Source of the DNA: a virus
IMG/VR virus record: IMGVR_UViG_3300020207_000156
Location: 1 to 24,141 of that record
Reading direction: 5' to 3' (one strand)
Length of the DNA: 24,141 nt
Both the position numbers and the translations under genes were made by a program. The notes beneath the pieces are model-generated. The model did no database searches, was not told the origin of the DNA, and saw only the letters and a program-made list of their open reading frames with translations. Of the stretch, positions 1 to 21,400 are shown one piece after another; positions within the stretch are counted from its first letter, which is position 1; every line of letters starts with the position of its first letter.

Positions 1-297
1 AAGTATGGTTCAACAAGTCCTTGGGGGACAACACCAATTTTAAGAAATCAATATTTAGACGTAATGAAAATTAGGCCAGTGCCGGCAAGCGACGATGATG
101 TATTATATGAAATACAACCTCAGTTTACGCATAGACCTGACTTACTTGCTTTTTCAATTTATGGTACTCCAAAGTTATGGTGGGTATTTGCACAAAGAAA
201 CATGGACATTTTAAAAGATCCTGTTTTTGATCTTGAAGCAGGTGTTCGAATCTATATTCCAAGAGAAGACAAATTAAAAGACTTTTTAGGTTATTAA
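1..297 (+). CDS. 53: Baseplate wedge protein, gp53-like (5' truncated)
   Basis: The frame is open from the first base to a TAA at 295-297, giving 98 C-terminal residues; the true start lies before the window. The Met codon at 64 is probably internal, because the 21 codons before it read as the same family (SPWGTTP, then LDVMKIRPVPAS). Recognisable gp53 features are RPVPAS, the conserved THRPDLLAFSIYGTPKLWWV stretch followed by FAQRN, and a C-terminal IYIPRED strand like the end of a LysM-type fold. In T4, gp53 (196 residues) joins neighbouring wedges in the baseplate. The next gene starts 4 bases after this stop, so the two are probably co-transcribed. Family identity comes from remembered motifs, not a search, but the match is strong and the hub and spike genes follow. 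Confidence 0.87.
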   Translation, partial: KYGSTSPWGTTPILRNQYLDVMKIRPVPASDDDVLYEIQPQFTHRPDLLAFSIYGTPKLWWVFAQRNMDILKDPVFDLEAGVRIYIPREDKLKDFLGY

Positions 298-300
298 TAA

Positions 301-3024
301 ATGGCAATAAATTTTACTAGACTTACTAATTCGGTAAAAGACTTACCAACGCAACTGAACCGTGTAACAGGTCAAGCAAACGACCTGTTAGGATCTGTAC
401 CAGCTCAAGTAGAAAGTTCTCTTAACAATTTAAAATCACAAGCAAGTTCGTCAATAATTTCCGTAACTGATCAGTTCAATGTTGGAGAACAATTAGAATC
501 AGCAGTAGCCGGATTTAGAAATAGTATTCCTACTGATATTCAACAATTAGCTGATATTGAACAGGCTATTTCGCAAGGAGCAGCAGGTCTAATTGCATCA
601 GCATCAGGCTCTGTATTACAAACTGCTACAGTAGCATTAGGACAAACAGAAAATAAATTAAAAGAATACGCAACATACAATTACATTATAACACTTGCTT
701 GTTTAACAATTAACGAAATTAATTTTCCTGATAGTACATATCGAGTTGGTCCACCGAAAGTAACAGTATTAAAATCAGGAGGCGGACTAGGAGCTAGTAA
801 AGCAAAAACAGCATACGAAACTAGTGATTTATCGTTAGAATATTTTATAGACGATTTAGAAATTGAAGGAATTATCGCACCTACTACTAAATCACGTTCA
901 ACAAATGCAACAGTTTTAAATTTTACTGTTACAGAACCTTATAGTATGGGATTGTTTTTACAAACACTTATGATTGCTGCTAATAAAGCAGGTCATAAAG
1001 ATTATTTAAAAGCACCATATGCACTAATAATAGAATTTAGAGGATATGATGATAACGGTAATCCTTTAAACTTAGATAGAACAACACGCAGAGTATTTCC
1101 AATAAGCATTAACACAGTTGATTTTGATGTTACAGCAGGTGGTTCTAGATATGCAGTACAAACTAATGCTTGGCAAGAAATTGCCTATAGCAGTGTAGCA
1201 CAAAGTACAAGAAGCGACACTATTTTGCAAGGCGCATCTGTACAAGAATTATTACACACCGGAACAAACAGTTTAACAGCAATACTTAATAAAGCAATTA
1301 GAGAAAAAGACGATGAAGGAAATAGTATTAATAGAGATGAATATGTTATAATGTTTCCAAACCAACTCTCATCAAGTTTAGGAATATCAAATCAAGCAGG
1401 AACAAATCTTAGTGACAGAGCATTAATGACCGAAGAAGAATTTTATTCCGCTTGGACTGGTGCTGACACTGAATTGTTTGATTTTGATCCTGACCTTCTT
1501 TTACAAAATAGATCAGAAGCATACGAACGTTATATAGAAATTAGTGCTTCAAACAATAATATTTCAGCCGCAGTACGCAGAGCTGCTGATAATACTGAAA
1601 CAGCTAATCCAATAGGAAAAGGTCAAATTGACAGTGCAATGATAACAGGTGGTGCAGTACCTTTTGGTGAAGAAGCATACACATATGATCAAAGAACAGG
1701 CATTTATAGAAGTGACCAAGTAACAATTTCTCGAGATTTTAGAACATTTCAGTTTAAGCAAGGAACTAGGATTGAAGATATAATTGAAGAAATAGTTTTG
1801 ATAAGTGAGTATGCTCAAACAGCCGCAACACAATTACAAAGTGTTCCTGCAGGTGGAGGAATGATTCCTTGGTTTAGAATACATGCGCAAACATTTTTAG
1901 TACCAGATGAAGAAATTAGACGTAGAACCGGCCAAAATCCAAAAATATATGTATATGCAGTTGTGCCTTATCAAGTACATTCGTCAACATTTCAACAAGC
2001 ATCGCAACCATCAGTGGGCATAGAACAGCGTAAAGCAGCCGCAGCAAAACGATACGATTTTATCTATACAGGTCAAAACGACGATATAATTGATTTTGAA
2101 ATTAATTTCAATAATGCATTTTATACAGCAATGAGTTCAAACATGAATGGTGCAGGAACAACTAGACTTGCAACTCGTGATTCTGTAACAGTAGATACTG
2201 CACCAAGATTTCAGCCAGCAGCAGGAAATGAAGGTGTTGGCAGTGTTAACAGTGACAGATCTGTAACAGAAGTTGCAAATGCAACAGCAACCGGAAATAG
2301 TGGCGGCAGTGATGCAGATACACCTGCAATACGAGTTGCTAGAATGTTCCATGAGGCAATAGTCAATAATGACACTGATATGGTTACGATGGAGTTAACT
2401 ATTATAGGAGATCCTTATTATCTTGCAGACAGCGGACAAGGAAACTATTTTTCTCCACCATCGGGATTTACAGGATACACGTCAGACGGAACAATGGATT
2501 ATCAGTCGTCAGAAGTAGAAGTTTTAGTAACTTTTAAAACTCCGATAGATTATAATACAGGAAATGGATTAATGATATTTCCAGAAATAGACAATGTTCC
2601 GGTAAACGCATTCACTGGCTTATACAAAGTAAACATTGTAAGAAACAGTTTTGCTGGAGGAAAGTTTACTCAAGTGTTAGAATTAATTAGAAGAAACAAT
2701 CAAGATAGTGATACAAATGTTAGAGGCGGCGGCACCGGCGATAACTCTACTGCTGTTGCTCCATCAGACACTACTGGCAGCGGCTCAGGAGATACACAAA
2801 CTCCACAACCAGTAATTTTTGGCGGACAGGATATTACTAATACAGGAACAGCACAAGGAACTGGAGCAGGAGCACCACCTACTCCTACTCAACCTACTGC
2901 ACAAGTTAACACAACATCTCCAACAGTGGAATTTGGTGGACAAACAATCGTTAATGAAAACTTTACTCCTCCGGCTAATAATAATCCGCCGCCTGATGCT
3001 AATATTGATGGAGGAGTTTCTTAA
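301..3024 (+). CDS. Baseplate hub protein, probable gp27-like role (907 aa)
   Basis: This is a large virion protein with no signal peptide or membrane segment. Residues 1-125 are helical, rich in Ala, Ser and Gln, and look like an added N-terminal region. Residues 126-300 hold a beta-rich domain with TEPYSMGLFLQTL (211-223) and IIEFRGYDDNG (243-253), a pattern I associate with T4-like hub proteins. Residues about 520-611 carry MIPWFRIHAQTF, KIYVYAVVPYQVHSS and YTGQNDDIIDFEINFNNAFY. Residues 697-717 carry MELTIIGDPYYLADSG. The last 100 residues are low-complexity Gly/Thr/Pro and contain FGGQ twice. The gene lies immediately before gp5 and overlaps it by one base, as expected for a hub that carries the spike. 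T4 gp27 has only 391 residues, so this would be a much enlarged version. It could instead be another central baseplate or tube-initiator protein. The ATG at 301 follows two TAA codons; the AGG at 288-290 is a weak ribosome site. Confidence 0.6.
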   Translation: MAINFTRLTNSVKDLPTQLNRVTGQANDLLGSVPAQVESSLNNLKSQASSSIISVTDQFNVGEQLESAVAGFRNSIPTDIQQLADIEQAISQGAAGLIASASGSVLQTATVALGQTENKLKEYATYNYIITLACLTINEINFPDSTYRVGPPKVTVLKSGGGLGASKAKTAYETSDLSLEYFIDDLEIEGIIAPTTKSRSTNATVLNFTVTEPYSMGLFLQTLMIAANKAGHKDYLKAPYALIIEFRGYDDNGNPLNLDRTTRRVFPISINTVDFDVTAGGSRYAVQTNAWQEIAYSSVAQSTRSDTILQGASVQELLHTGTNSLTAILNKAIREKDDEGNSINRDEYVIMFPNQLSSSLGISNQAGTNLSDRALMTEEEFYSAWTGADTELFDFDPDLLLQNRSEAYERYIEISASNNNISAAVRRAADNTETANPIGKGQIDSAMITGGAVPFGEEAYTYDQRTGIYRSDQVTISRDFRTFQFKQGTRIEDIIEEIVLISEYAQTAATQLQSVPAGGGMIPWFRIHAQTFLVPDEEIRRRTGQNPKIYVYAVVPYQVHSSTFQQASQPSVGIEQRKAAAAKRYDFIYTGQNDDIIDFEINFNNAFYTAMSSNMNGAGTTRLATRDSVTVDTAPRFQPAAGNEGVGSVNSDRSVTEVANATATGNSGGSDADTPAIRVARMFHEAIVNNDTDMVTMELTIIGDPYYLADSGQGNYFSPPSGFTGYTSDGTMDYQSSEVEVLVTFKTPIDYNTGNGLMIFPEIDNVPVNAFTGLYKVNIVRNSFAGGKFTQVLELIRRNNQDSDTNVRGGGTGDNSTAVAPSDTTGSGSGDTQTPQPVIFGGQDITNTGTAQGTGAGAPPTPTQPTAQVNTTSPTVEFGGQTIVNENFTPPANNNPPPDANIDGGVS
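2812..2964 (+). repeat. Duplicated FGGQ peptide motif in the hub C-terminal tail
   Basis: Two related 13-residue motifs, VIFGGQDITNTGT (residues 838-850) and VEFGGQTIVNENF (876-888), lie 38 residues apart in a disordered-looking Gly/Thr/Pro/Asn tail. The repeat is visible in protein and only loosely in DNA. A short docking peptide is a guess. Confidence 0.55.
3010..3016 (+). promoter_or_regulatory. Strong ribosome binding site for gp5
   Basis: GGAGGAG lies 7 bases before the ATG at 3024, within the last codons of the hub gene. It fixes the gp5 start, whose A is also the last base of the hub stop codon (TAATG). This arrangement suggests coupled translation. Confidence 0.75.
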
Positions 3025-5513
3025 TGCCAGCAAATACACGACCTTCACGACGATTAGTAGTTTCGAATCCAGGTCCGTACGAAGCGATTGTTGTATCTCA
3101 TCTTGACCCAAAAAGAATGGGTACACTTCAAGTTGAATTATTAAGAAACAGCACGTCTGGTAACGATCCAGAACGTTCAGGGCAAATAGTTACAGTAAAG
3201 TATCTGTCTCCGTTTGCAGGAACAACACCTATATCAGGAAATACTACTACAAATAATTTTCAAGGATCACAGAAATCTTATGGGTTTTGGATGGTACCAC
3301 CTACAGTTGGAACACGAGTTCTTGTTATATTTGCAGAAGGAAACATTGCTAGGGGTTATTGGATTGGTTGTGTATATGATGCTTATATGAATTGGATGAC
3401 CCCAGATCCTTGGTCAGGATCTCCGTACAATACTTTTGATCCTAATAGAAAATTACCAGTTGCAGAGTTTAATAAACGTATAGCATCTTCTGCAGGTAAC
3501 GATCCTACAAAATATATTAAACCTCTTAATAACGATTTTTACACTATACTTGGACGTCAAGGACTTGTAGATGACGATGTTAGAGGTCCTGCCAACAGCT
3601 CTAGTAGAAGAGAATTACCGTCAAGGGTTTTTGGGGTAAGCACCCCCGGGCCAACTGATAAACGAGAAGGTGCACCTAAAGGTCCTATAGGACCAGTTGA
3701 AGCAAGAACACAAGCGTTTTCAAGTGTACTCGGTGGAAGCAGTATTGTAATGGACGACGGTGATGACCGTTATATAAGAAACAGTTATGCTAGCCAAGAT
3801 AAAATGGAGTATACAGATCTTGTTGCTAATCCTGAAGCAACTACAGGAATAAAAACGCTACCAAAAGGTGAAATGATGCGATTTAGAACTCGCACAGGAC
3901 ATCAGATTCTTATGCACAATTCAGAGGATTTAATTTACATTGCTAATGCCCAAGGCAGTACTTGGATAGAATTAACTTCTAATGGTAAAATTGATATCTA
4001 TGCACAGGATAGTGTTAGCATAAGAACACAAAATGATTTAAATGTTAGTGCTGATAGAGATATCAATATGACTGCGTCAAGAGATATTAACTTTAATGCT
4101 GGTAGAGATTATAAACTTACTGTTTCAAACAACAGTGATGTTAAAGTTGGCAATGATCATAAACTTGATGTTGCTTCAAATCATGATGTATATGTTGGAG
4201 CAACACAAAAAGTATATGTTGGTGCAGAAGGACATTTAGTAGTAGTTGGCGCACACTATATAACCAATCAAACAACGTTTGATATGAGCACTACAGGACA
4301 GCGTACAGAGTTTCAAGGACAGTACGATTTACAAACTGGCGGACACAATTATTTCACTTCAGGTGAAAATACAGAAATTGCATCTAGCGGAGACATTATT
4401 CAAACAGGCACAAACATTCATCTAAACGGTCCTGCGGCTACTACCGCAGCTCTTGCGAGCGGAGCAGCGCAAGCCGCTGTCGCAGCACCTGCGCTTTGGC
4501 CGGTACGTGTACCGGTACATGAACCGTGGCGTGGACATGAACATTTAGACCCTGGAACATTTACTCCTCAGTTCACACAAGCAAGCAGTTCTCCAAGCCC
4601 TGCATTAAGAGAATCAACACCGCAACTTAATACTAATGCTGACTTAGCAGGATCTGGCGCAGCGCCAGGAGCAACAGTTGCAGCAGCAAACAACACTACT
4701 GCCGGATCAAATGCACAAGTTGTTGTACCTGGAGAAGTAGGAACTAGCGGAGCACAACCAGCAAATCCAGTTCCGGTTAACGATTTACAAAAACACTTTT
4801 TAAGTGAACTTATAAAAGCAATTGGATTAGACCCTGCAAATGCTCTTAAAACAGCAGATCCTAACAGACTTGCCCCTGGTGAAACACCAGGAAATGCAGA
4901 AGCACTTGGTATGGCAATGGCACAGATTCAAGCAGAATGTGGTTTCCGTCCAAGAAGCGAAAACATGAATTATAGAGCAAGTACATTACGTAGAGTATTT
5001 CCTAGTCGTGTTAGAAGTGATGCGTTTGCTCAAGAACTTGTTGCAGCAGGGCCTGCTGCAATTGGTAATACATTGTATGGCGGACGTTATGGCAACGCTC
5101 AAAATGAAGGTTACAAATATCGTGGTAGAGGGTTGATTCAGTTAACATTCAAAGACAACTATAGACGTTATGGTGGACTAGCTGGAACTCCACAAATTGT
5201 TGAAAATCCTGATTTAGTTAATGATCCGGAAATTGCAGTAAAAATTGCTTGTGCATATATTAAATCAAAGTCTATTAGTTGGGGAAGTTATGACTTTGGA
5301 GCACTTGGTGAAGAATTCCGTAGAGCAGTCGGTTATGCTAACCGCGGCGGCGAAGAGACACGAAATCGTATTGGATTAGGTAGAGGGTTTGCAAGTAAGA
5401 TTATTACTGGTGAGCTAGTACCGCTTGCAAGTATTACAACAGAACCTGCAGGCACAAATATTGAAGCAGGTAATAGAGTTGAACCAGCAGAAGAACTTCC
5501 TCCACTGCCATAA
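3024..5513 (+). CDS. 5: Baseplate spike protein gp5 with C-terminal GH19-like lysozyme domain
   Basis: 829-residue central tail spike that pierces the cell envelope and opens peptidoglycan. Residues 10-120 form a gp5/VgrG-type OB-like domain, with PGPYEAIVVSHLDPKRMGTL near 16-35 and a GTRVLVIFAEGN strand near 97-108. Residues 323-468 are octad repeats (DINMTASR, DINFNAGR, then a row of Val/Gly octads) as in the T4 gp5 beta-helix needle. Residues 470-580 are an Ala/Pro/Thr-rich linker with VPVHEPWRGHEHLDP. Residues 587-800 match GH19 chitinase-like endolysins: QIQAECGF with likely catalytic E638, ENMNY with second candidate E646, and YKYRGRGLIQLT at 697-708. T4 gp5 (575 residues) instead places a GH24 lysozyme between OB fold and needle. 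The start is fixed by GGAGGAG and the one-base overlap with the hub gene. Family assignment is from motifs only. Confidence 0.88.
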   Translation: MPANTRPSRRLVVSNPGPYEAIVVSHLDPKRMGTLQVELLRNSTSGNDPERSGQIVTVKYLSPFAGTTPISGNTTTNNFQGSQKSYGFWMVPPTVGTRVLVIFAEGNIARGYWIGCVYDAYMNWMTPDPWSGSPYNTFDPNRKLPVAEFNKRIASSAGNDPTKYIKPLNNDFYTILGRQGLVDDDVRGPANSSSRRELPSRVFGVSTPGPTDKREGAPKGPIGPVEARTQAFSSVLGGSSIVMDDGDDRYIRNSYASQDKMEYTDLVANPEATTGIKTLPKGEMMRFRTRTGHQILMHNSEDLIYIANAQGSTWIELTSNGKIDIYAQDSVSIRTQNDLNVSADRDINMTASRDINFNAGRDYKLTVSNNSDVKVGNDHKLDVASNHDVYVGATQKVYVGAEGHLVVVGAHYITNQTTFDMSTTGQRTEFQGQYDLQTGGHNYFTSGENTEIASSGDIIQTGTNIHLNGPAATTAALASGAAQAAVAAPALWPVRVPVHEPWRGHEHLDPGTFTPQFTQASSSPSPALRESTPQLNTNADLAGSGAAPGATVAAANNTTAGSNAQVVVPGEVGTSGAQPANPVPVNDLQKHFLSELIKAIGLDPANALKTADPNRLAPGETPGNAEALGMAMAQIQAECGFRPRSENMNYRASTLRRVFPSRVRSDAFAQELVAAGPAAIGNTLYGGRYGNAQNEGYKYRGRGLIQLTFKDNYRRYGGLAGTPQIVENPDLVNDPEIAVKIACAYIKSKSISWGSYDFGALGEEFRRAVGYANRGGEETRNRIGLGRGFASKIITGELVPLASITTEPAGTNIEAGNRVEPAEELPPLP
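3990..4427 (+). repeat. Octad-repeat beta-helix needle region of gp5
   Basis: Residues 323-468 consist of about 18 eight-residue units. The cleanest run is DINMTASR, DINFNAGR, DYKLTVSN, NSDVKVGN, DHKLDVAS, NHDVYVGA, TQKVYVGA. The alternating hydrophobic positions with Gly or Ala match the triple-stranded beta-helix of T4 gp5 and VgrG, which trimerises into the puncturing needle. Confidence 0.85.
4782..5423 (+). other. GH19 chitinase-like lysozyme domain (within gp5)
   Basis: Residues 587-800 read as the GH19-like fold used by many phage endolysins. Key landmarks are AQIQAECGF (first candidate acid E638), SENMNY (second candidate acid E646) and the substrate-cleft block YRGRGLIQLTFKDNY (699-713). 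Peptidoglycan cleavage during injection is the expected role. The usual HES around the first acid is AEC here. Confidence 0.78.
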
Positions 5514-5534: not shown

Positions 5535-5981
5535 ATGAGTACACAAGAAAAACGTTTATATAAAGAGGTAACAGTTAGCTCTAACAAAAGACCGTCTCTA
5601 CCAACACAAAGTAGAGCGTACAAAGGCATCTCAACAGTTAATAAAGAGAATAGCAGTTTTAACTTGTATGACATTGCTCTTATAAAACAGGATATTATAA
5701 ATCATTTTCATATTCGTGTAGGAGAAAAGTTAGAAAATCCTGGATTTGGAACTATCATTTGGGACGTATTATTTGAACCAATGACAGAAGCTCTAAGAGA
5801 TGCTATTGCTGATAATGTTACAAAAATTATCAATCATGATCCTAGGGTACAAGTTGAGCAAGTCACTGTAGACACCTATGAAAGTGGTATAATGATAGAG
5901 TGTACGCTAACATATTTGCCTTACAATATTTCTGAGAGTATGCGCTTAAAATTTGACGAAGATAATGCTATTTTATCTTAG
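5535..5981 (+). CDS. 25: Baseplate wedge protein gp25
   Basis: 148-residue member of the gp25 / TssE family, which sits in the inner baseplate and is thought to nucleate sheath attachment. Family landmarks are LYDIALIKQDI (44-54), the block GEKLENPGFGTIIWDVLFEP (63-82), and HDPRV (101-105), which corresponds to the conserved EPR motif with Asp in place of Glu. The length is close to T4 gp25 (132 residues) with a slightly longer, basic N-terminus. The gene lies 21 bases after gp5 and 59 bases before gp6. The ribosome site is poor: only AGGG at 5519-5523, 11 bases upstream. No other Met codon occurs before residue 83, so the start is firm. In T4, gene 25 is not next to gene 6; here it precedes it. 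Confidence 0.92.
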   Translation: MSTQEKRLYKEVTVSSNKRPSLPTQSRAYKGISTVNKENSSFNLYDIALIKQDIINHFHIRVGEKLENPGFGTIIWDVLFEPMTEALRDAIADNVTKIINHDPRVQVEQVTVDTYESGIMIECTLTYLPYNISESMRLKFDEDNAILS

Positions 5982-6040: not shown

Positions 6041-9000
6041 ATGTCCACGACAGATAGACAAAATAGACTATTACTAGCGGAAGATTGGAAACGAGTTTAT
6101 CAGTCTTTCCGTAATGCAGATTTCCAAAGTTACGACTTTGATAATTTGCGTAGAACAATGATTAATTACCTCCGTCAAAACTATCCGGAGGACTTCAACG
6201 ATTATATCGAATCAAGCGAATATCTAGCACTTATTGACCTTATTGCTTTCCTTGGTCAAAACTTGTCTTATCGTATTGATTTAAACGCTCGTGAGAACTT
6301 CCTTGAACTAGCAGAACGCCGTGAAAGTGTACTACGTTTAGCAAGATTGCTTTCCTATAATCCTAAGCGTAACCAATCAGCAAATGGCTTGTTAAAGTTT
6401 GAGTCTGTAAGAACTACCGAAGAAATTTACGATTCAAATGGTACAAACTTATCAGGACAAACTATACTATGGAATGATATTTCAAACCAAGATTGGTACG
6501 AGCAATTTATTAAAGTACTTAATGCTGCACTTCCAGCAAACTCTGTTTATGGGCGTCCTGTAAAAAGCAGTACAGTTAACGGAGTTAGTGTTGAACAGTA
6601 TAGAGTAAACGGTACAAACAGCGATATTCCTGTTTATGGTTTTACTAAAAATGTTGATGGTAAATCAACACAATTTGAAATTGTAAGTACTAACATTGAG
6701 AATGGTGCTATTATAGAAGAAGCACCTCTTCCGGGAAATAACTTTGCATTCCTTTATAGAGATGATGGACAAGGAGCAGGTTCTAATAATACAGGATTTT
6801 TTGCACACTTTAGACAGGGTCGTTTAGATCAAGGGCAATTTACAGTTACTAATCCTTCAACAAACCAAGTAGTTGCTATTGATGCAATTAATGTTAATAA
6901 TACAGATACTTGGCTATACAAACTTGACACTATAGGTAGTGAGCAAGAACTATGGACAAAAGTTGATGCTATAGAAGGTAACAACATTGTTTACAACAGT
7001 TTAAACAAAAATATTAGAAATGTGTATTCTGTTTTAACAAGAGTAGAAGATAGAATTAGTTTAATTTTCTCTGATGGTACTTTTGGTAACTTACCTAAAG
7101 GTAGTTTTAAAGTTTACTATAGAGTAAGCGACAATAGAAGTTTTACTGTTAGTCCTGGAGAGTTAATTAATATTTCAATAACTATTCCTTATCAAAGCAA
7201 ACAAGGTACAAGCGAAAAACTAACAATAGGGTTAGAATTAAAATATGCTATAGATAATGCAAGCACTTCAGAAACAAGTGCAAGCATTAAAGCAAATGCT
7301 CCTGCAACTTATTATACACAAAATAGAATGGTTACAGGCGAAGACTACAATGTTGCTCCTTTAAATATTAGTCAAGAAATTATTAAAGTTAAAAGTGTAA
7401 ACAGAACATCTAGTGGTATTTCAAGATACTATGATTTGCTTGATGCAACAGGAAAATATTCTAAAACAAACCTTTACGGAAAAGACGGTGTTATCTATAC
7501 ACAAAATTTAACAAGCAAAGAACAATTTACTTTTAATACTAGAACAGACATTGAAGGTATTATTAAGAATCAAATTGAACCTATACTAGCAAATTATAAA
7601 ATTAAAAACTTTTACTATGCACAATTTTCTAAAATCATAGTGCGTGATCTAGGTGCTAGATGGAATCAAGTAACAAAAGCACAAAACCTTACAACAGGTT
7701 ATTTAACCGATGCTGACGGAACAAAACTAAGAGTTGCATCTTTTACTGGCTCTACGCTACAATATTTAGAACCAGGGTCTATGTTAAAATTTGTAACACC
7801 TGCTGGTTATTTCTTTATGCCAGACGGATCAATAAGACCTGGACAACCTAATATTCCAGGAGCAAAAACATATAAATGGACTAAAGTAATTTCTATAAAC
7901 GGACCAGGTATTGATAATACAAATACTGGTGAAGGAGCTATTGCACTTAATGATATTATTCCTGGCGGAATTAATGGAGATATAAACTCTGCACCAATCC
8001 TACAAGAAATTAAACCTGTGTTTACAACTGAAATAGAAACACAAATAAAAACACAAATTATTGATCAAGTCTTTACATACAAAACATTTGGATTAAGATT
8101 TGATTTTAGATCTTCAACTTGGCGTGTAATACTTGAAAATGATCTTGATATTTTATCTACATTCTCAACTGGTAAAAGTGGAGATCAAACAAATCAAAAT
8201 TTAGATTCAAGTTGGATTTTGTTATTCCAAACAGATGGAGAAACATACACAATTACATATAGAGGTAAGCGTTATGTTTTTGAAAGCGATAGAGAGATTA
8301 GATTCTATTACGATAGCTCAGACAAAGTTTTTGATCCTTTAACAAATGAAATTGTTAAAGATAAAATTTCTTTAATGTCTATTAATACTGTTCCAGTTAA
8401 TGACGGATACGGATTAACACCATTTACTACACCGTTTGATTGGGAAATTGTAAATGAATACAGAGATAACGAAGGTTACGTTGACAGTAAGAAAATTGAA
8501 ATAGGATTTTTTGATAGTGACGACGATGGTGTAGTTGATGATCCAGAAATATTTGATAATTTTATTACAAACTCTGTTTCTGATAAATTTATATTCCAAA
8601 AGAAATATACTACAACAGATAATGTAGAAGATTATAGATATGTTGATGCATTTGATGAAAATATACAAGTTGTTAATACAGAAACTGATATAACAACTAA
8701 CGGTATTGATAGTTATCCTGCAAATTCTGTTTTTTATATAATTGATACTAATATCTTTAAAGTATATAATACAACTACAGAAGTATTAGAAATTGTTGTA
8801 AATTATAGAGCTTATAACGGAAGAGATAAAATCATATTCCAATACGAACATGCTGCTGACGAAAGTAACAGAATAGATCCAAGCAGCTCAAACATAATTG
8901 ACACTTATGTTTTAACTAAGCAGTATGATACAAAATTTAGACAGTACATTTCGGGTGCTATTTCTAGCAAGCCAGTACCTCCTACTAGCGACGAGCTTTA

Positions 9001-9490
9001 TGTTAATTTTGGAGAAGAAATTAATAAGATAAAGTCAATTAGTGATGAAGTTATCTATCATCCTGTTAAGTATAAAGTGCTGTTTGGAACAAGCGCATCA
9101 GAAGATCTAAAAGCAATGTTTAAAATAGTTAAAAATCCTGATAAAGTTGTAAACGACAACGAAATCAAAGCAGCAGTTATTACAGCAATTAATGAATTTT
9201 TTGCTATAGAAAACTGGGAATTTGGCGATACATTTTACTTTACAGAATTAAGTGCTTATGTCATGACGCAAGTAGCGCCAGACTTAGCAGCCTTTGTTAT
9301 TGTTCCTGTACAAGATAGTTTAACGTTTGGTAGTTTGTTCGAAGTTAAGTCAGAAGCAGATGAAGTGTTTATTAGTAGTGCAACTGTTGATAACATTGAA
9401 GTAGTTTCTTCGCTTACTGCTACTAAACTTAAAGCATCTGGAGCAATATATACAGATACATCTAGCATAAGCGGAGGAAACGTTTACTAA
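6041..9490 (+). CDS. 6: Baseplate wedge protein gp6, enlarged (1149 aa)
   Basis: gp6 forms the dimeric wedge core that closes into the inner baseplate ring. The N-terminal 120 residues are typical: DWKRVYQSFRNADFQSYDF (15-33), then SSEYLALIDLIAFLGQNLSY and RRESVLRLARLLSYNPKRNQ. The C-terminal region (about 1008-1120) also reads as gp6, with KYKVLFGTSASEDLKAMFKI and ENWEFGDTFYFTELSAYVMT. Between them is a large beta-rich middle, so the protein is about 490 residues longer than T4 gp6 (660). Residues 825-836 (DSDDDGVVDDPE) form a perfect EF-hand-type calcium loop pattern. The start has a good ribosome site and a late-promoter-like element upstream. The stop overlaps the start of the giant gene by one base (TAATG), so the two are probably translated together. 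Confidence 0.88.
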   Translation: MSTTDRQNRLLLAEDWKRVYQSFRNADFQSYDFDNLRRTMINYLRQNYPEDFNDYIESSEYLALIDLIAFLGQNLSYRIDLNARENFLELAERRESVLRLARLLSYNPKRNQSANGLLKFESVRTTEEIYDSNGTNLSGQTILWNDISNQDWYEQFIKVLNAALPANSVYGRPVKSSTVNGVSVEQYRVNGTNSDIPVYGFTKNVDGKSTQFEIVSTNIENGAIIEEAPLPGNNFAFLYRDDGQGAGSNNTGFFAHFRQGRLDQGQFTVTNPSTNQVVAIDAINVNNTDTWLYKLDTIGSEQELWTKVDAIEGNNIVYNSLNKNIRNVYSVLTRVEDRISLIFSDGTFGNLPKGSFKVYYRVSDNRSFTVSPGELINISITIPYQSKQGTSEKLTIGLELKYAIDNASTSETSASIKANAPATYYTQNRMVTGEDYNVAPLNISQEIIKVKSVNRTSSGISRYYDLLDATGKYSKTNLYGKDGVIYTQNLTSKEQFTFNTRTDIEGIIKNQIEPILANYKIKNFYYAQFSKIIVRDLGARWNQVTKAQNLTTGYLTDADGTKLRVASFTGSTLQYLEPGSMLKFVTPAGYFFMPDGSIRPGQPNIPGAKTYKWTKVISINGPGIDNTNTGEGAIALNDIIPGGINGDINSAPILQEIKPVFTTEIETQIKTQIIDQVFTYKTFGLRFDFRSSTWRVILENDLDILSTFSTGKSGDQTNQNLDSSWILLFQTDGETYTITYRGKRYVFESDREIRFYYDSSDKVFDPLTNEIVKDKISLMSINTVPVNDGYGLTPFTTPFDWEIVNEYRDNEGYVDSKKIEIGFFDSDDDGVVDDPEIFDNFITNSVSDKFIFQKKYTTTDNVEDYRYVDAFDENIQVVNTETDITTNGIDSYPANSVFYIIDTNIFKVYNTTTEVLEIVVNYRAYNGRDKIIFQYEHAADESNRIDPSSSNIIDTYVLTKQYDTKFRQYISGAISSKPVPPTSDELYVNFGEEINKIKSISDEVIYHPVKYKVLFGTSASEDLKAMFKIVKNPDKVVNDNEIKAAVITAINEFFAIENWEFGDTFYFTELSAYVMTQVAPDLAAFVIVPVQDSLTFGSLFEVKSEADEVFISSATVDNIEVVSSLTATKLKASGAIYTDTSSISGGNVY
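8513..8548 (+). other. EF-hand-like calcium-binding loop in gp6
   Basis: Residues 825-836, DSDDDGVVDDPE, have Asp at loop positions 1, 3 and 5, Gly at 6, a hydrophobic residue at 8 and Glu at 12. That is the full EF-hand or dockerin-type loop pattern. Beta-strand-like sequence flanks it (KIEIGFF before, FDNFI after), so it is more likely a lone calcium loop than a helical EF hand. Confidence 0.5.
9473..9477 (+). promoter_or_regulatory. Ribosome binding site for the giant gene
   Basis: GGAGG lies 12 bases before the ATG at 9490, within the last codons of gp6. The spacing is long, but the one-base TAATG overlap with the gp6 stop suggests coupled translation. Confidence 0.5.
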
Positions 9491-12400
9491 TGGCTTACGA
9501 AAATAATCAGTCTGAGTATCCATTACCAGTTAACGGAGATTCGGGATCTCGCAAAAGCGAAAAATTTCTCCCAAGATACTTTAGAACAGAAGTAAACAGT
9601 AAATTTTTACAAGCAACATTGGACCAGCTAACACAACCAGGTGTTGCTGAAAAACTTAATGGGTATTACGGAAGGAAAATTTCTAAAGCCTATAGTGCAT
9701 CAGACAATTATGTCGGTGATGTATCTACTCAACGAGAAAACTATCAACTTGAGCCAGTTACACTTATTAAAGACAATCTTGGAAACGTTACATTTTTAAA
9801 AGATTATAATGATTACTTAAACCAAATTAAAAGTTTTGGAGGAAATGTAGAAAATCAAGAAGTTTTAAATAGACAAGAATATTACACTTGGAATCCGCAC
9901 ATTGATTGGGATAAGTTTTCAAACTTTAGAGAATATTACTGGTTACCTTATGGACCGCAAACAATAAGAGTTGCAGGTCAGGAAAGAGGTATAGAAAGTA
10001 CTATTAAAGTTTCATTATTTGATAATTTAGATAATGTTGGTTATATTTTCTCTTCCGATGAACTAGTACAAAATCCTACACTAGTATTGTATAGAGGACA
10101 AACTTATACGTTTGAAATTGATACTCCAGGAAATCCTATTTCATTTAGAACAAAAAGAACCTTACAAGATGATTTCAACTATAACGATGGTGTTAGTGTT
10201 CAAAGCGTCGAAAAGGGAACTATTACATTTGAAGTAGATCCAAATGCTCCAGAAGCATTATATTATATTGCAGATAATAATATTAACAATAGTGGATTAA
10301 TTCAAATTAAAGACATTGAAGAAAATACAGAAATCAATGTTGAAAAAGAAATTTTAGGAAAAACAAAATATAAAACGGCATCCGGAATACAATTTTCTAA
10401 CGGAATGAAAATAAGATTTGTAGGATTAGTAACTCCAGAGATTTACAGCGAAGGCGATTGGTATGTTGAAGGTGTTGGAGAAAAGATACAACTTATAAAA
10501 GAAACTGATCTTGAAATTCCTGGACCTTATGCTGAAAATAGAGAAATACCGTTTGATACTAATGAGTTTGATAGATTACCATTTGAGACAGCAAGTGGAT
10601 ATCCAGGTGTTCCAGATTACATCCTAATAAATCGTGCAAGTAAAGATGGAAACATGTGGTCTAGATATAATCGCTGGTTCCATAAAGATGTTGTTGAACA
10701 ATCAGCATTGATTAATGGACAAACAATTAGTGCAGATCAATCTCAACGTGCAACAAGACCAATTATTGAATTCCAAGCCGGCACAAAGTTGTTTAACTTT
10801 GGATCTAAAAACAAGACTAACGTTGACTTGATAGATACATTTACAAAAGATATTTTTTCAACTATTGAAGGTTCTCAAGGATACAACATTGACGGAATAG
10901 ATTTAGTAGACGGAATGAGAGTTCTATTTGTTGCTGAAGAAGATATTAGAGAATCTGGAAAAATATATAAAGTAAAATTTATTACTCAACGAGGCATTAG
11001 ACAGATTAGTTTAATTGCAGAAGAAGATTCAGAACCGTTAGAAAATGAAACAGTACTATCTCTTAATGGAGTAGAGTATCAAGGTCGTATGTTCTACTAT
11101 GATGGAACTAAGTGGCACCTAACACAAGAAAAAACAAAAATAAATCAACCACCATTGTTTGATTTATTTGACAATAACGGTTTTAGTTATAGTGATACTT
11201 CTGTGTATCCAAATAGTGATTTTACTGGAAATAAAATATTTTCTTATAGAGAAGGCACAGGCACTAACGATAGTCAATTAGGTTTTCCATTATCATATAG
11301 AAGTATTGAAAATATTGGTGATGTAGTATTTGACTTTGATCTTGTAAACCAAGATATTACATTTACAAATGATTCTTTGTTATCAGAAACTATTCGTACA
11401 GATGCTAGTTCTGTTTTTAAGTATAAATCAAGAACTGAGTACGAAGTTCAGAATGGTTGGATTAAAGCAAACACAGAAAGTGCTCAACGAGTTTTAAGAC
11501 AGTATGTAGCAGAAGAAAATCAAACAAGATTTACAGTAGATGTTTATGACAATAGTTCTACAGTAGATTTTTTAACAATTCGAGTCACTATTAATAATGA
11601 TTTAAAATTTGAAAATATTGATTTTACCATTGACAAAACTGGATCCAATGCTGTAGTTGAGTTTACTCAACCTCTGTCAGCTAACGACATTGTTGTTTTA
11701 TATTGTAGATCTGCTGTAACAAAGAACGAGAATGGTGTATACGAATTACCTTTAAATGCAGAAAGAAATCCGCTTAATAGTGATATTGTAGAATTTACAT
11801 TAGGTGAAGTAAACGATCATGTTACTTCAATTGTACAAGAAGCCGAAGAGTTTTACGGCGTTCACCCAGGTGCCGGCAATTTAAGAGATATAGGCAATCT
11901 TTCAAGTTATGGTAGAAAATTTGTACAGCACACGGGACTAGTAAATCTATCACTATATCATATTACAGATAAAAATGCAAATATAATTAAAGCAGTTGAT
12001 TTTAACAGACGAGAGTATGCAAAGTTTAAAAGATTATTTTTACAAACAGCACTTGGTTTGGGGTTTGACGGATCTCCAAAAGCACACGTTGATTTAATTT
12101 TTAAAGAAATAAACCAAAATAAAACTACAACGCTTCCGTTTTATTTTTCCGATATGATTCCAATAGGCGGATCTAGAGTAACCGAATACGATGCCATTCC
12201 AGGAAACATTTATTATGCTCTAAACGAAGTATTTGATAATACACAACCGGGCGTTAAAGCGGTAACTGTATATCTAGACGATAATCAATTAATTTATGGA
12301 AGAGACTATACTTTTAATGCTGATGGATTTTGTGAAATAACGGCAGAAACTGTAGCAGGACAAAAGATTACAATTTACGAGTATGAAACTACAGACGGAT

Positions 12401-15400
12401 CTTATGTTCCGCCTACTCCTACAAAATTAGGGTTGTATCCTAAATTTATTCCTACAAAGTTTATAGATAACACATACCTAGAACCAACTGAAGTAATACA
12501 AGGACACGACGGATCAATAGTAAAAGCATTTGGCGATTTTAGAGATGATCTATTGCTTGAACTTGAAAAAAGAATTTTTAATAACTTAAAAGTCTCTTAC
12601 GATCCTAGTATACTTGATATTCATACATTTGTAGGTGGTGAATATAGAGATACAAATATTTTAAAAGACAGTATCGATAACGTTCTTTTAAAAGACTTTG
12701 CTTCTTGGTTAACAAATATTGATGATGTTGATTATACTGATTTTAGTTTTTATCAAAGAGATAATAGATTTACATATAACTACAGCTCAATGAAATCTCC
12801 TAACGGAACAAGTTTACCTGGCTATTGGAGATCTGTTTATAAACAAGCATACGACACTGATAGACCACATACACATCCTTGGGAAATGTTAGGTTTAACT
12901 ATTAAGCCTTCGTGGTGGGAAGAAGTTTATGGTCCAGCTCCGTATACTAGTAACAACTTGTTATTATGGGAAGATTTAGAAAAAGGTATAATTGCCCAAC
13001 CAGGGGTATCAAGAATTATTAAAGATCAATATAAGCGTCCTGGTTTAATAAATCATATTCCTGTAGATACTGGTGGAAATTTATTAAGTCCATTAGATAG
13101 TGGTTACGCTAAAAACTTTGTTGCAGCACTTTCAAAAGCTACGTTTGTTTTTGGCGACGAAGCACCAGTTGAAACAGCCTGGAGGAAAAGTTCAGAATAT
13201 CCATTTGCATTAATGAAATCATGGATACTAAACCAACCAACAAAAATAATTGGTTTAGGTTTTGATAGATTAAGAATAACACGTAATAATGCTAATCAAC
13301 TAGTATATAGTGATACACAAAAAAGAATAACCTTAGAAGATTTAAAATTCCCTAATAACTCAACAGTGTCTGATGATACAAATAGAATATATACTTCGGG
13401 ATTTGTTAATTTTATTGCAAATTATCTATCGAGTAATGTTTTATCTAATTATGAAGATTATCAAACAAATCTTAAAAGTGTAACTAATCAGATAGCATTT
13501 AAGGTTGGCGGTTTTACAGACAAAACTAAATTTAATCTAATACTTGATAGTAGAACTCCTTTAAACCAAGGAAACGTTTTCATACCGCCAGAAAACTATC
13601 AAGTAACATTGCAAACAAGTAGTCCTATTGATGTTGTTACATATAGTGGTGTTGTAATTGAAAAAGCAACTAGTGGATATATTATTAGAGGGTATGATAT
13701 ACCTAGTCCGTCTTTTAGATATTATAAACATCAAGAAAATGAAAAAGATCCTCTAGTTAATGTAGGAGGAGTAAGTGCAGGATTCGTAGAATGGGATCAA
13801 AATAAACGTTATGTTGTAGATACTATTGTAAAGTTTGAAGTAACTTATTATAGATGTACTACAGCACACACTAGTACCAGCATATTTGACCAAACTAAGT
13901 TTTCAAAACTTCCTTCATTGCCAACCGAAGGCGGCAGATCTGCTATATTTAGAACTAAGTTTGATAAAGTATTTCCACAAGAGTTACCATACGGAACATT
14001 ATTAAGAACTACACAGGAAGTTGTTGACTTTATACTAGGATATAGTGAATACTTAATTGATTCAGGATTTGTTTTTAACAATCATAATCCTAATTTAGAA
14101 ACTATTGAAAACTGGAAATTAAGTGCAAAAGAATTTATGTTCTGGACAACTCAAGCCTGGGATAGTGGAGCATTAATAACTCTTAGTCCAGGTGCACAGC
14201 GAATTGAATTTAAATCAGAGTATGCAGTAGTAGACGATATATTTGATACTTTTTATGATTACGGGTTAGTAAAAGCAGACGGCACAAAACTAAGAAAAGA
14301 ATTTTGTAATATTTTAAGAACCAATGATAATAGTTTTGTTCTTACTACAAAAAATACAGCAGACGGAATATATGCTGTAAAATTACCATTAGTTCAAAAA
14401 GAACATGCTATTGTACTTGATAATGAAACAGTATTTAAAGATGTTATATATGATTTAGCACCAGGATATAGACAAGAGCGTATTCGTGTACTAGGTTACA
14501 GAACTGCTGACTGGGCAGGCGGATATAACATTCCAGGATTTTTATATGATAATGCTACAGTAACAGAATGGCAATCTTGGAAAGATTATGCAATTGGCGA
14601 AACTGTTAAGTATAAAGAGTTTTATTATACTGCTACTACTAAAATTACAGGTAGTGAAACATTTGTTAATAGCCAATGGTATAGACTAGACGAAAAACCA
14701 GAAAGCAGACTTATTTCTAACATTGAATATAAAACTAATCAATTTGCTGATTTTTATGATTTAGATACTGATAACTTTGATATTAACCAACAAGAAATTG
14801 CACAACATTTAATTGGCTACCAAAAAAGAGATTATCTAGCAAATATTATTAACGACGATGTTAGTCAATACAAGTTCTATCAAGGAATGATTGCTGATAA
14901 AGGCACTCGTAATGTATTAACTAAATTGTTTGACGCACTTGGCGCAGCCGATAAGGAAAGTTTAGAGTTTTATGAAGAATGGGCTGTTAGAGTAGGCCAA
15001 TATGGAGCAGCTGACGGATTTGATGAAATTGAATTTTTGTTAGACGAAGAAAAGTTTAGATTAAGTCCGCAACCAATTCTACTAACTAATACTATTCCAG
15101 AGGATGTTACAGATTTAATTTATAGACAAACTCCAAGTGATATTTACGTTTCGCCTGTTAATTATACAAGCAATCCTTTCCCAGTAAGATATACACCGGA
15201 TACTCCTTTAAAAACAGCTGGATTTGTTAGAGAAGATGATGTTCAATATACAGTGAAAACATTTGATGATATATTAACTTTGGATCATACAGTGTTAACT
15301 GAAGGTGATTATATCTGGGTAACATTTGAAAAAGATTCTTGGAATGTTTATAGATATGTTGACACTCCTTGCAGAGTTACATCTCTTATTAGTACAGAAA

Positions 15401-18400
15401 GTAGCACATCTGTAGTTGTTGTTTTAGACAGATTAACTTCTGTTAAAGTTGGAGATATTATAGGTTTATATGAAACTGGAGAAGAAATTAACGGACTGTT
15501 TAAAGTAACAGAAGTTGCACTGAACAGAATAACTATTGAACTACCTGAAGATGTAACACTAAGCAATGAACTAACAGAACTCACAGGAATCCTAACAACG
15601 TTTGTTTCTAACAGAGTAGCAAATCTTGAAGAAGCAAATTCATATGCAGAAAACGACATAGGGTTTAACGAGTTACTATGGGTTGATAGCCAAACAACTG
15701 ACGGTAATGGAAAATGGGCAGTACTTAAAGCAGGTAACTCATTTAACTTTGACGAAGATTTAATAAATCCTACAAATTCAAATTACTCATTTGGTAAAAG
15801 TATATTTACTAATGATGATAATACTTTAGTTGCAGTAGGTTCTCCTGAAGATGGAGATGGAAAAGTCTTTATATATGAAAGAGTGCAAGACGGCAGCACA
15901 GCTCACGGAACACTACAATTTAAACAAGTTATAGAACCAACACTAAACTTTTCGTCAGGCGGAAGTAAGTTTGGAGAATCGGTTTCTATAAGTCCTGATG
16001 GTAAGTTCTTAGTTGTTGGAGCTCCAAATGCAAGCAATGTAAAAACAGCATATAAAGAAGAATTTAACTTTAATACAGATTATAAATTAGGTGCTATTGT
16101 ACAACATAAAGGTAATTTGTTTAAATCAAGAAGAACAGTTAGAGGTAGATCCGATAATGTTGTTTTTGGTACATTTGGTAGTGCTAGTAGTTGGAGATCA
16201 GAATTACATAAAATCTATAACTCCTATGACGATGTACCTTTAATTGCATTAGGAGACTCTCCGCTAAGAGATGTTTCAATCGATCATATATTAGTTAGAG
16301 CACCGGCTGCTGCGTTTGAAGGTAGTAATGTAGGTGATAGCGTATACTTTGATTGGAACGATATTAGTTACAATTACAATCCTATATCGGAAGTTGCTAT
16401 AACAAATATTAATTTGGCAAATCCTGTAGAAATTACAACAGCAACTGATCATGGATTTTCAGATGGTGACGAAGTAATATTTACTGATTTCCCAAATGAC
16501 GGATTCTTATTTAGACCATTTACAGGTAATGACCTATTTGACAATAGTGATGTAAACGTTCCTTATGATACTATAAGACAATACGGTGTTAAAGGATTTG
16601 AAAACAAACGATATTATGTTAAAGTTATAACTAGTCAGTTAGTTGAACTTTATAATAATGAAGAGCTTACTAATAGAGTTAACGGTAATCCAACATCTGG
16701 ATTATTTACTGGTTCTTCAGATCCAACTAGATTTAACGGATACATAAGAAAAATTAATAAGATTTTTGATGATCTTTATTCTGATGTAATAAACAAATCT
16801 TTCTTAACAACAACTGTTCATACAGTTAGAAGAAAAATTACAGATGTATTTTATGTTGTTGATCCTATAAACATTCCTAGTGTATCACAAGGAGATAGAG
16901 TTACTACAACAACAGGTAATGCTGATGTAGTTTATGTCCGCAACGAATTAGGAAGATTAATTATCTATGCTAACAATAAAAACGGTATTTTCAGTGAAAC
17001 TGGAGAATTGTTTATTAATGACCAATTCCGAATTGGAACCTATACTAGACCATTGCATGATAGTGTAGATAGAAGTTCAGTCTTAGGCGGGTATTGGGAA
17101 ATAGCGTTACCTACACCTATTACACCTAAAGATTATCAAATAGTTGATGCACCACTAATTGAACCTGCTGATGGTCTAGTGTTAGTTGATGTTAAAAATA
17201 ATAGTGCAACTGATTTAGTTAACGGATATACCGAAAGTACAGCTAGATTACCTTATAAGAGCACTATTCAAAATGCCTTAGATGTTCCAGTTACAATTAT
17301 TGCTGCTACAGGTCTACCGTTCCAAAAAGAAACAGACTTAATACGTGTACTAAGTCATAAAAGTCAAGGCGTTGGCGGCAGTGTTACAGAAATAGATGTA
17401 TTAGATCATCGTTGGGTAGTTAGATTGCCTAAAAATGTTTCTGACAAAGCAACAACTGCGTTTTCTGATGCAACAAAACCAGATCCTTATGTTGGTGTTT
17501 GGTTAAACGATATACCCGGTGTTGACGGAACATTGCCAGACTTATCGGATAGAGGTTTTGGGACAGATCCTTACAGTATTATAAACGAAACAAGAGTTCC
17601 TTTAGATTTATGGGATGGATACATTGATTATGATGTATTTGCTGAAATTCCTTTAGTGCCTGGTGATGTTATTAGAGAAGGCATTTCTGGAGCAACAGCA
17701 GAAGTTGCATATGTTCAAAGAGATCTTGACAAGGGAAGAGTGTATGTTAAAAATGTATCAGGTACATTTAGTTTTGGTGATAGATACTTCCCGGGGTTAG
17801 CACCGACGTCTATGTTCTTGTACAAGCAAGTCGGAGTACAACTTTCTAGATTTGGTACAACTGAATCAAGACAACTTGCCGACGACGATATAGGTAAACT
17901 AGCAGTATTTGGTCAATTTGATGAAAATGGAACTCCTATACCTAGAGAAATTCCACCTACACTGACATATGCTATTACATCTACTTCAGACGAAATTGCA
18001 GATTATGAAGTTAAATTTATTTCTGGAATAGAATATCATACTTGGGTTGAAGAGCGTAAACCAGGACTTCCACGTAATGCTATTGAACCAAGTACAGAAA
18101 ATAATGACTGGTTTGAAGTTGATAATATTCCAATTAATGTGCAAAGAAATGCAAGCTCTTTTGTTAATGAAGGTGCATACTTTGTTTACGAATACAATAC
18201 AGAAACATACAATTATGATTTAGTAAATGGTTATATTTTACCTAACAGAGAATCTAACAGATTCCTTGCTAGACATGTTAAAATTATTCAAAACAATAAT
18301 TTTTATAAAATTATTATCAATTCTAATGAAACACATACTAACGATACAAAACAAGAAGTTAGTGCAGATGGTAGAGGTAGATTATATTTTGTTCTTAATG

Positions 18401-21400
18401 GAACAAGCGACTATGGAACATTTAATTGGTCACTAGGAAGAGATCCAAACTTCAAAGGTGTTTATTCTAATACAAGCTCTTATTATCAAGATCAAATTGT
18501 TATCTATAATGAAGTATTTTATAAAGCATTAACAACAATGCAAGCTGAAGAGTTTGATAGTACTAAATGGAGAGTGTTAGGAGATCATATAGACTATGTT
18601 GGCTATTTGCCTAATACTTCAGGAATTACTATTATTGGTGACGATTCTAGTATTTCAAATTTAGATACAACAGCATTTGGCGATCAATTTGATATAAGTG
18701 ATAATGGCAGAGTACTAGCAACTATTGCAAGATATGAAACTGGCGATAAGTTAATAATTTATAGACTAAAAGATATGCATTTTGAATTTGCAGCGGAGTT
18801 TGATGCCCCGGCAGATTCAAAGAATTTTGGTGATAGTATTGCAGTTTCTGATAATGGTAACTTGATTGTTGTTGGAGCATATAAATCAGATGATAATGAA
18901 GCATTCCAAGGAAAAGTATTTGTTTATAAAAATGTTTCCGGAGTATATCAACTACAGCAAACTTTACACAGTCCTAATGCAGAGCTAGTTGAAGGCTTTG
19001 GACTTAATTTAAGTTTTGACGGCAACCAATTAATAGTAGCAGGAGAAGCAAGTGATATTATACTCGATACAACATTTGATAGGTATTCAGAAAGAAATAC
19101 AAATTCTTTAACAGAGTTTAATAGTAAGTTTGTAAATAATCCTAATAGTAATTTGTCAATTGGAGAAACTACATTTGACAATGGATTTACTACATATGTT
19201 AAAAAACTAAACGATAGTGGTATAGTTTACTTGTATGAAAATGTAAATGATACTCTAGTATTTGGACAACGTTTAAAATATCCTGACTTCAGAGTTAAAG
19301 ATTTTGGTAAGAATATAGTTGTTAAAAACAATTCAATTTTAGTAGGTTTGCCAGGAAGTTTGGTACAAGATAACCTAGTTGGAAAAGTAGCAGTTTACAA
19401 TAAGTTTAATGAAAGTAAAATTTGGGAAGTATTTAGAGAGCCAGTTGATCCAGCTGATATTTCAAAATTTAGAGGAAGTTTCTTATATGACACTAGTGAA
19501 AACAAAATGCTCACTAGGCTTGACATATTAGATCCAATACAAGGAAAAATTCCCGGATTAGCAGAACAAGAACTATCTTATAAAACTTACTATGACCCAG
19601 CATCTTATAATATAGGATATGCACATGATAAAGAACAATATGTTTCTTGGGGCAGTGAACATGTTGGTAAACTATGGTGGGATTTAAGTACAGTTAAGTA
19701 TGTTGATTATCATCAAGGTAGTATAACTTATGCACAAAATCATTGGAATACATTTGCTGAAGGTTCGTCAGTAGATATTTACGAATGGGTTGAATCAAAT
19801 ATTCTTCCTTCGGCTTGGGATAACTTAGCCGGTACAAATAGAGGTATTGCTTTAGGAATAAGTGGTGTTTCTAAATACGGAGATACTAGATATGTTGTAA
19901 AAGACATATACGATTCTATCTCGCAATCATTTGTAGTAAAATATTATTTTTGGGCAAAAGGAACCACAATACTACCACAAGTAGAAGGAAGATCAAAAAC
20001 TGGATTTGATGTACAGAATATTATATTAGATCCTCAAGGACAGCAATTAAAATTTGTTACTATTTTAGGCGATAATAAATTTGTTCTTTATAATTCTAAC
20101 GGTTATTTAAAAGACAAAGACATTGCAATAAATTTCCGTTATTGGACTATAGATAATCAAGATAATAACATCCATACAGAATATCAAATTATTACAGACG
20201 GATTTGAAACAAGCCGTCCTAAGAAAGTAATAGAAGATAAATGGTTTGATAGTTTAATAGGATCAGATAAATTCCATAGACCTGTTCCAGATCCTGCATT
20301 AAGTGTAAAGCAAAAATATGGAAATATGAATAGACCAAGACAGAGTTGGTTTGTTGATAGACAGGAAGCACTAAAGCAGTTTATTGAAAGAGTTAATAGA
20401 GTATTAGCAAAAGAGTTAGCTACAGATAATTTAAATCTTGCAAAGCTATTTGATGCAGAAAAAGCACCATCAACATTAACAGGATTATATGACACTGCTG
20501 TTGACACTGATGAAGAATTAAGATTTATTGGTACAGTACGTGCAGAACAAGCACAAATACAAGCAACTGTTGTTGACGGAGTTGTGACTAAGATAGATGT
20601 TATTAATAGAGGTAGAGGATACAAATATCCACCTAAGATTGAAATAACTGGAACTGGAGAAGGTTTAGAGCTAGTACCAGTATTAAACAATTTAGGCATG
20701 ATTACAAGCGTTACTATTGTAAATGGCGGGTCAAACTACACTAATGATATAACGCTTACTATAAGACCTCTTACTGCGCTTGTAAGAGCGGATAGTACTA
20801 TAGGCGGTGCCTGGTCATTGTATGCTTGGAATAGCACTACAAGAACTTGGAATATAGTTCGTCAGCAATATTATAATGTTTCGCAATATTGGCAGTATAA
20901 AGATTGGTACGAAGATGGCTATTCTGAACTTACATCTGTTGATTTCTTAATAGATGACTATTACCAGTTAAACATTATTAATGATAGTATTGGTGATATT
21001 GTTAAAATATCAAATGTTGGCGAAGGTGGATGGATTTTACTTGAAAAAATTGTTAACGTTGATACTCCTGATTACACTTCGGGATATAGAACTGTTGGTA
21101 GACAAAGAGGCACAATAGAGTTTTTACCTACACTGTATACTCAAGAAGGCGGCGATACAGAACTTAGAAAGATACTTGAAACTATAAGAGATGACTTGTT
21201 TGTTGACGAACTAGCTTCTGAATATAATCAGTTATTCTTTGCAAGTTTACGCTATGTACATACTGAACAAAACTATGTAGATTGGGCATTTAAAACCAGT
21301 TTTATTAAAGCAAAACACAACGTTGGAGAGCTTATTGAGAAAACAACATTTAACAATGATAGTTTACCTAGCTTTGAAGCATATATTGAAGAAGTTAAAC

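Follow-up and report, generated by a model that had tools for sequence, protein, structure and literature searches.

The locus described here raises the question of how the tip of a phage spike is closed when a cell wall-degrading enzyme follows the needle, where phage T4 places a tip protein, and whether such an enzyme has to be cut from the spike before it can act. The window analysed, i.e. the whole stretch of 24,141 nt, is record IMGVR_UViG_3300020207_000156, a 24-kb fragment of an uncultured virus, and the spike and its baseplate neighbours described below are encoded on its + strand. It starts with a gp53-like baseplate wedge gene (1..297; phrog_7145, E 6e-22), the 5' end of which lies beyond the window, followed by a gene for a hub-type virion structural protein (301..3024; phrog_11190, E 5e-27) that adjoins the spike. 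The spike ORF (3024..5513) encodes a protein of 829 aa and 88 kDa, which by its profiles is a gp5-type central spike with a C-terminal GH19 domain. A gp25-like baseplate wedge gene (5535..5981; GPW_gp25, E 6e-8) begins 21 nt downstream of it, followed by a gp6-like baseplate wedge gene (6041..9490; phrog_10646, E 5e-299). This is the baseplate-gene neighbourhood expected of a gp5-type central spike, and the order gp53, hub-type protein, spike, gp25 and gp6 is also found in RaK2, PA5oct and partly in Atu_ph07, with a structural-protein gene in the matching position in all three. The source is a marine jumbo-type phage, very probably with a contractile tail and related to RaK2 and PA5oct. The remainder of the window is occupied by a giant ORF (9490-24141, at least 4884 aa) that runs out of the window and matches phrog_10938, annotated as 'virion structural protein', in several stretches.

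The N-terminal part of the spike has an OB fold of the injector type known from phages and type VI secretion systems (T6SS), as is found in gp5-type spikes. Phage_base_V (PF04717) matches residues 84-118 with an E value of 4e-6 and 27.4 bits, above the cut-off of 23.8, within an OB-fold collar region (residues 17-130, 3072..3413) that is conserved in 28 relatives, and the RaK2-type spike family phrog_13211 matches the protein with an E value of 6e-50 and its best stretch at residues 21-208. Residues 301-470 (3924..4433) should constitute the needle, a triple-stranded beta-helix with octads that are clear from residue 322 to about 417. The hydrophobic autocorrelation of residues 301-415 is 0.62 at lag 8, a value reached by none of 2000 shuffled sequences (p = 0.0005), and both Gp5_trimer_C and DUF2345 match the needle slightly below their cut-offs. 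Since an AlphaFold2 model of the full-length spike with 22 relatives was poor (pLDDT 42) and was discarded, we infer the needle fold and the spike trimer from profiles, periodicity and homology, and the placement of the GH19 domains is likewise a prediction. The alignments used for folding consisted of the window and survey loci, with GenBank phage rows left out.

The needle is followed by the conserved motif PVHEPWRGHEHLDP (residues 497-510, 4512..4553). The form PxHEPWxxH, or a near variant, is present after the needle in every full-length GH19 spike and in every full-length spike with a VgrG3-like enzyme, and it is found at or near the C-terminus of the enzyme-less spikes of SCTP-2 and PA5oct, in the latter in a degenerate form. 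RaK2-type spikes have HxH at this place, and the HEPW motif is absent from S-SSM5 and from T4 gp5. Next comes a linker rich in Ala, Pro, Ser and Thr, as read from the sequence (residues 511-580, 4554..4763), and then the GH19 domain (residues 581-797, 4764..5414). The preliminary description put the enzyme at the far C-terminus, and it does come after needle and linker, but a short and partly conserved tail that includes the conserved SITTEPAGTNIEAGNRV still follows (residues 798-829, 5415..5510), for which the model is of low confidence from about residue 815. This element of the tail is kept throughout the clade of the window. One spike of that clade (L026:8001-10856) is 952 aa long, with about 125 extra residues past the GH19 domain and a K/R-rich end.

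By sequence and model the C-terminal domain is of the GH19 muramidase type, as had been predicted. The Pfam GH19 profile matches with an E value of 3e-5 and 24.2 bits, slightly under the cut-off of 25.5, while a sequence search of the PDB finds GH19 endolysins with an E value of 3e-12. An AlphaFold2 model of the domain, made from 28 relatives, has a pLDDT of 84.6 and gives Z scores of 15.3, 15.2 and 14.9 to three GH19 endolysins, the first over 187 residues, compared to 9.9 for chitinases and about 6 for other lysozymes. E638 (codon 4935-4937) and E646 (codon 4959-4961) are invariant in 28 sequences; in an alignment with the SPN1S endolysin the former corresponds to its first Glu and the latter also to a Glu, and the corresponding pair E54 and E64 is required in the GH19 endolysin LysO78 (PMC8229158). 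The spike domain thus has both the fold and the catalytic Glu pair of a GH19 endolysin, and is putatively able to hydrolyse peptidoglycan. About 49% of the columns are invariant in the GH19 domain against 26% in the needle, indicating that the enzyme is under selection. A similar GH19 domain (52% identical) ends a 1223-aa protein of a 315-kb phage contig (L079:5082-8750); this protein is tape-measure-like and matches in the GH19 domain only, and was hence dropped as a relative of the spike.

The order OB fold, octad needle, linker and GH19 given in the preliminary description is correct according to the profiles, the lag-8 test and the domain model, and so is its account of T4 gp5, for which Pfam gives OB fold, GH24 and needle. 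The order is not new, however, since spikes with the enzyme after the needle have been published for RaK2 and CBB; it is already standard among characterised relatives, the case which the preliminary description had named as refuting it. For RaK2 gp078 a beta-helix with a lysozyme domain C-terminal to it was reported in 2013 (PMC3622015), and for CBB_240, in 2017, an OB fold, possibly an M23 domain, and a lysozyme at the C-terminus, the protein being detected in the virion by mass spectrometry (PMC5259590). Both have a homologous spike body (about 29-31% identical to the window spike over most of residues 17-470) and the same gene order, but their enzyme is a GH24 domain preceded by M23, and HxH replaces HEPW. 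Outside phages, the evolved VgrG3 of the Vibrio cholerae T6SS is a spike that likewise ends in a peptidoglycan hydrolase (PMC9927483), but one of another enzyme family and in a secretion system. The T4 spike also combines OB fold, beta-helix needle and lysozyme on a single chain, but its GH24 domain is located between OB fold and needle, whereas the enzyme here is C-terminal and of the GH19 family. The protein thus belongs to a published kind of spike, and what is new is the enzyme family and the evidence that enzymes are swapped. No fusion of GH19 to a spike was found in 50,697 annotated phage records, none of which covers 80% of the spike in one place; the GH19 matches listed (60 of 755 records) are ORFs named endolysin, chitinase, lysozyme etc., or unnamed, so that a rare fusion could escape. 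Such spikes are common among marine metagenomic phages, with 75 IMG/VR loci in a single scan; L119 used as the query retrieved three loci only.

Comparison of the relatives shows a conserved spike body to which the enzyme is attached as an exchangeable module. By local profiles, 71 of 229 full-length relatives carry GH19, 81 a VgrG3-like C-terminal lysozyme (PF21277, E 4.5e-30) and 11 GH24 together with M23, and several of the remaining ones have GH24 by Pfam; the slot after the needle is thus filled by GH19, VgrG3-like lysozyme, GH24 with M23, GH24, or nothing recognised. Pfam gives OB fold, needle, M23 and GH24 in RaK2, Vibrio 2.275, GAP32, Munch, CBB, BF and XbC2, a terminal GH24 in 121Q, SLT_3 in XacN1 and RAS14, and no enzyme in PA5oct and SCTP-2. 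In a tree of the spike body with the enzyme left out, the GH19 spikes form one clade (99/98), which is sister to the VgrG3-like spikes (100/99), and the RaK2 type is more distant; the needle has thus been conserved while its enzymes were exchanged. The spike of Atu_ph07 (L004:7905-10502) has a C-terminal trypsin-like peptidase domain (E 6e-17), and that of Phosso (L083) has a similar-looking end, separated from the rest by a very long linker rich in Gly.

A close case of exchange is found in the Red Sea phage contig PBPT01000016.1 (L191), whose spike is 46-49% identical to the window spike through HEPW and has the same synteny, with gp25 directly downstream and no adjacent PAAR gene, but, like the 81 VgrG3-like full-length spikes of the survey, ends in PF21277 instead of GH19. 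Two phage contigs, L190 and L191 (153 and 335 kb), are found in the Neomarinimicrobiota MAG RS350 and share a stretch of 21.5 kb around the spike at 99.9% identity. Both are read as phage contigs binned into the MAG, and the Neomarinimicrobiota label was rejected as evidence of the host.

In T4 the PAAR protein gp5.4 sits on the end of the needle (PMC4576200), and its gene is located between genes 5 and 6. A C-terminal enzyme had been supposed to conflict with a PAAR tip, but this conflict is not real. The GH19 spikes of the window clade have a sister clade (clusters L059, L111, L117 and L119) with the same OB fold, needle, HEPW-type motif, linker and GH19 domain, and with another C-terminal tail, in which all 24 full-length spikes have a PAAR gene between them and gp25. 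Most of these loci were obtained by a search for PAAR, but six of them (L059, L060, L061, L066, L071 and L076) came from the spike search, and PAAR is adjacent in every one. An enzyme at the C-terminus of the spike is therefore compatible with a PAAR tip gene. PA5oct shows the reverse arrangement: its spike EST35_0133 has a homologous body (31% identity over residues 17-470) and carries no enzyme, while its PAAR protein EST35_0245 (L192:4102-5124), detected by mass spectrometry, has a C-terminal extension annotated as muramoyl-pentapeptidase.

The preliminary description had proposed a search for a PAAR gene elsewhere in the genome; in contrast to the sister clade, no such gene was found in the contigs of the window's own clade. 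There is no space for the gene behind the window spike because gp25 begins so close to it, and an adjacent PAAR gene is found in 0 of 43 testable loci of this clade, where gp25 follows the spike directly. None was detected in the window or in the window-clade contigs searched, which are fragments of up to 61.7 kb, one of them a contig of 53.6 kb whose spike is identical. Either the clade encodes PAAR at another place in the genome or it lacks the gene. If it is missing, the spike might close its own tip, e.g. by the HEPWxxHEH segments of three chains, comparable to the HxH of the P2 spike gpV, which is an iron site (PMC6116203). An adjacent PAAR gene is likewise found in 0 of 80 testable VgrG3-like loci, and no PAAR gene is present on the 335-kb VgrG3-like contig or in the rest of its MAG, although an end-overlap test did not show this contig to be complete. 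The RaK2-type genomes, where HxH follows the needle, point the same way, with PAAR in 0 of 11, but they count as one observation because they are a single lineage. On the other side, PAAR is encoded far from the spike in PA5oct, Atu_ph07, Phosso, SCTP-2 and the 242-kb record of L326, so that absence from fragments proves little, and the HEP motif is present in these five (degenerate in PA5oct) and in all PAAR-adjacent GH19 spikes, and is thus no sign that PAAR is absent. Neither could HEPW be used as a marker of PAAR-capped spikes: the five genomes have both, but all VgrG3-like spikes have the motif with no PAAR adjacent, and none on the 335-kb contig. We therefore regard self-closure in the window clade as unlikely, and as slightly more doubtful still the wider proposal that the window and VgrG3-like clades have both dispensed with PAAR, which the sister clade keeps, and that the spike closes its tip, perhaps by a metal bound to HEPWxxHEH, with three GH19 domains in front.

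Taken as a whole, the protein is very probably the central spike, or tail lysozyme, of the phage: a trimer of gp5 type with GH19 domains tethered C-terminally that would cut peptidoglycan at entry. Three chains would form the trimer and dock with their OB folds on the baseplate hub, the octad repeats would act as the piercing needle, and beyond it the conserved PxHEPWxxHE motif and a flexible linker of 70 residues would lead to one GH19 domain per chain. On contraction of the sheath the outer membrane should be pierced by the needle, after which the GH19 domains on their tethers could cut the peptidoglycan at the entry point. Where tip genes have been found they are PAAR, which in the sister clade stand next to the gene for the spike with its C-terminal enzyme, and the two products may be assembled together.

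Cleavage of the T4 kind should not be needed to free the enzyme, because it sits at the end of a C-terminal tether instead of being inserted ahead of the needle. The gp5 precursor of T4 is cut on maturation, and by this precedent the GH19 domain might instead be removed from its precursor at the linker, as a free lysin or an aid in needle folding, leaving a mature spike that ends near HEPW and an enzyme with no part in entry. In fibre-type proteins a C-terminal domain is often removed by cleavage (PMC4576200), and the natural ends of the PA5oct and SCTP-2 spikes, at or near the motif, would fit such a product. However, the enzyme is in frame with the spike in all 71 GH19 and 81 VgrG3-like full-length proteins, with no split into two genes seen, and the linker is among the less conserved parts (mean 61% identical residues over 513-580, below its neighbours), with no invariant cleavage site standing out across the relatives, which makes removal at the linker improbable. 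Most improbable is that the domain is a chitinase or a binder of surface polysaccharides, for although GH19 includes chitinases and the Pfam family is named 'Chitinase class I', its nearest neighbours in sequence and fold are phage endolysins and TseP, an effector of the T6SS, which exceed the chitinases by about 5 Z units.

With the tethered GH19 spike as the preferred reading, the phage spikes of this lineage resemble T6SS VgrG proteins in that the peptidoglycan hydrolase following the needle can be swapped for another, and the GH19 sister clades, one with and one without an adjacent PAAR gene, offer a natural comparison for how phages close the tip of the spike.
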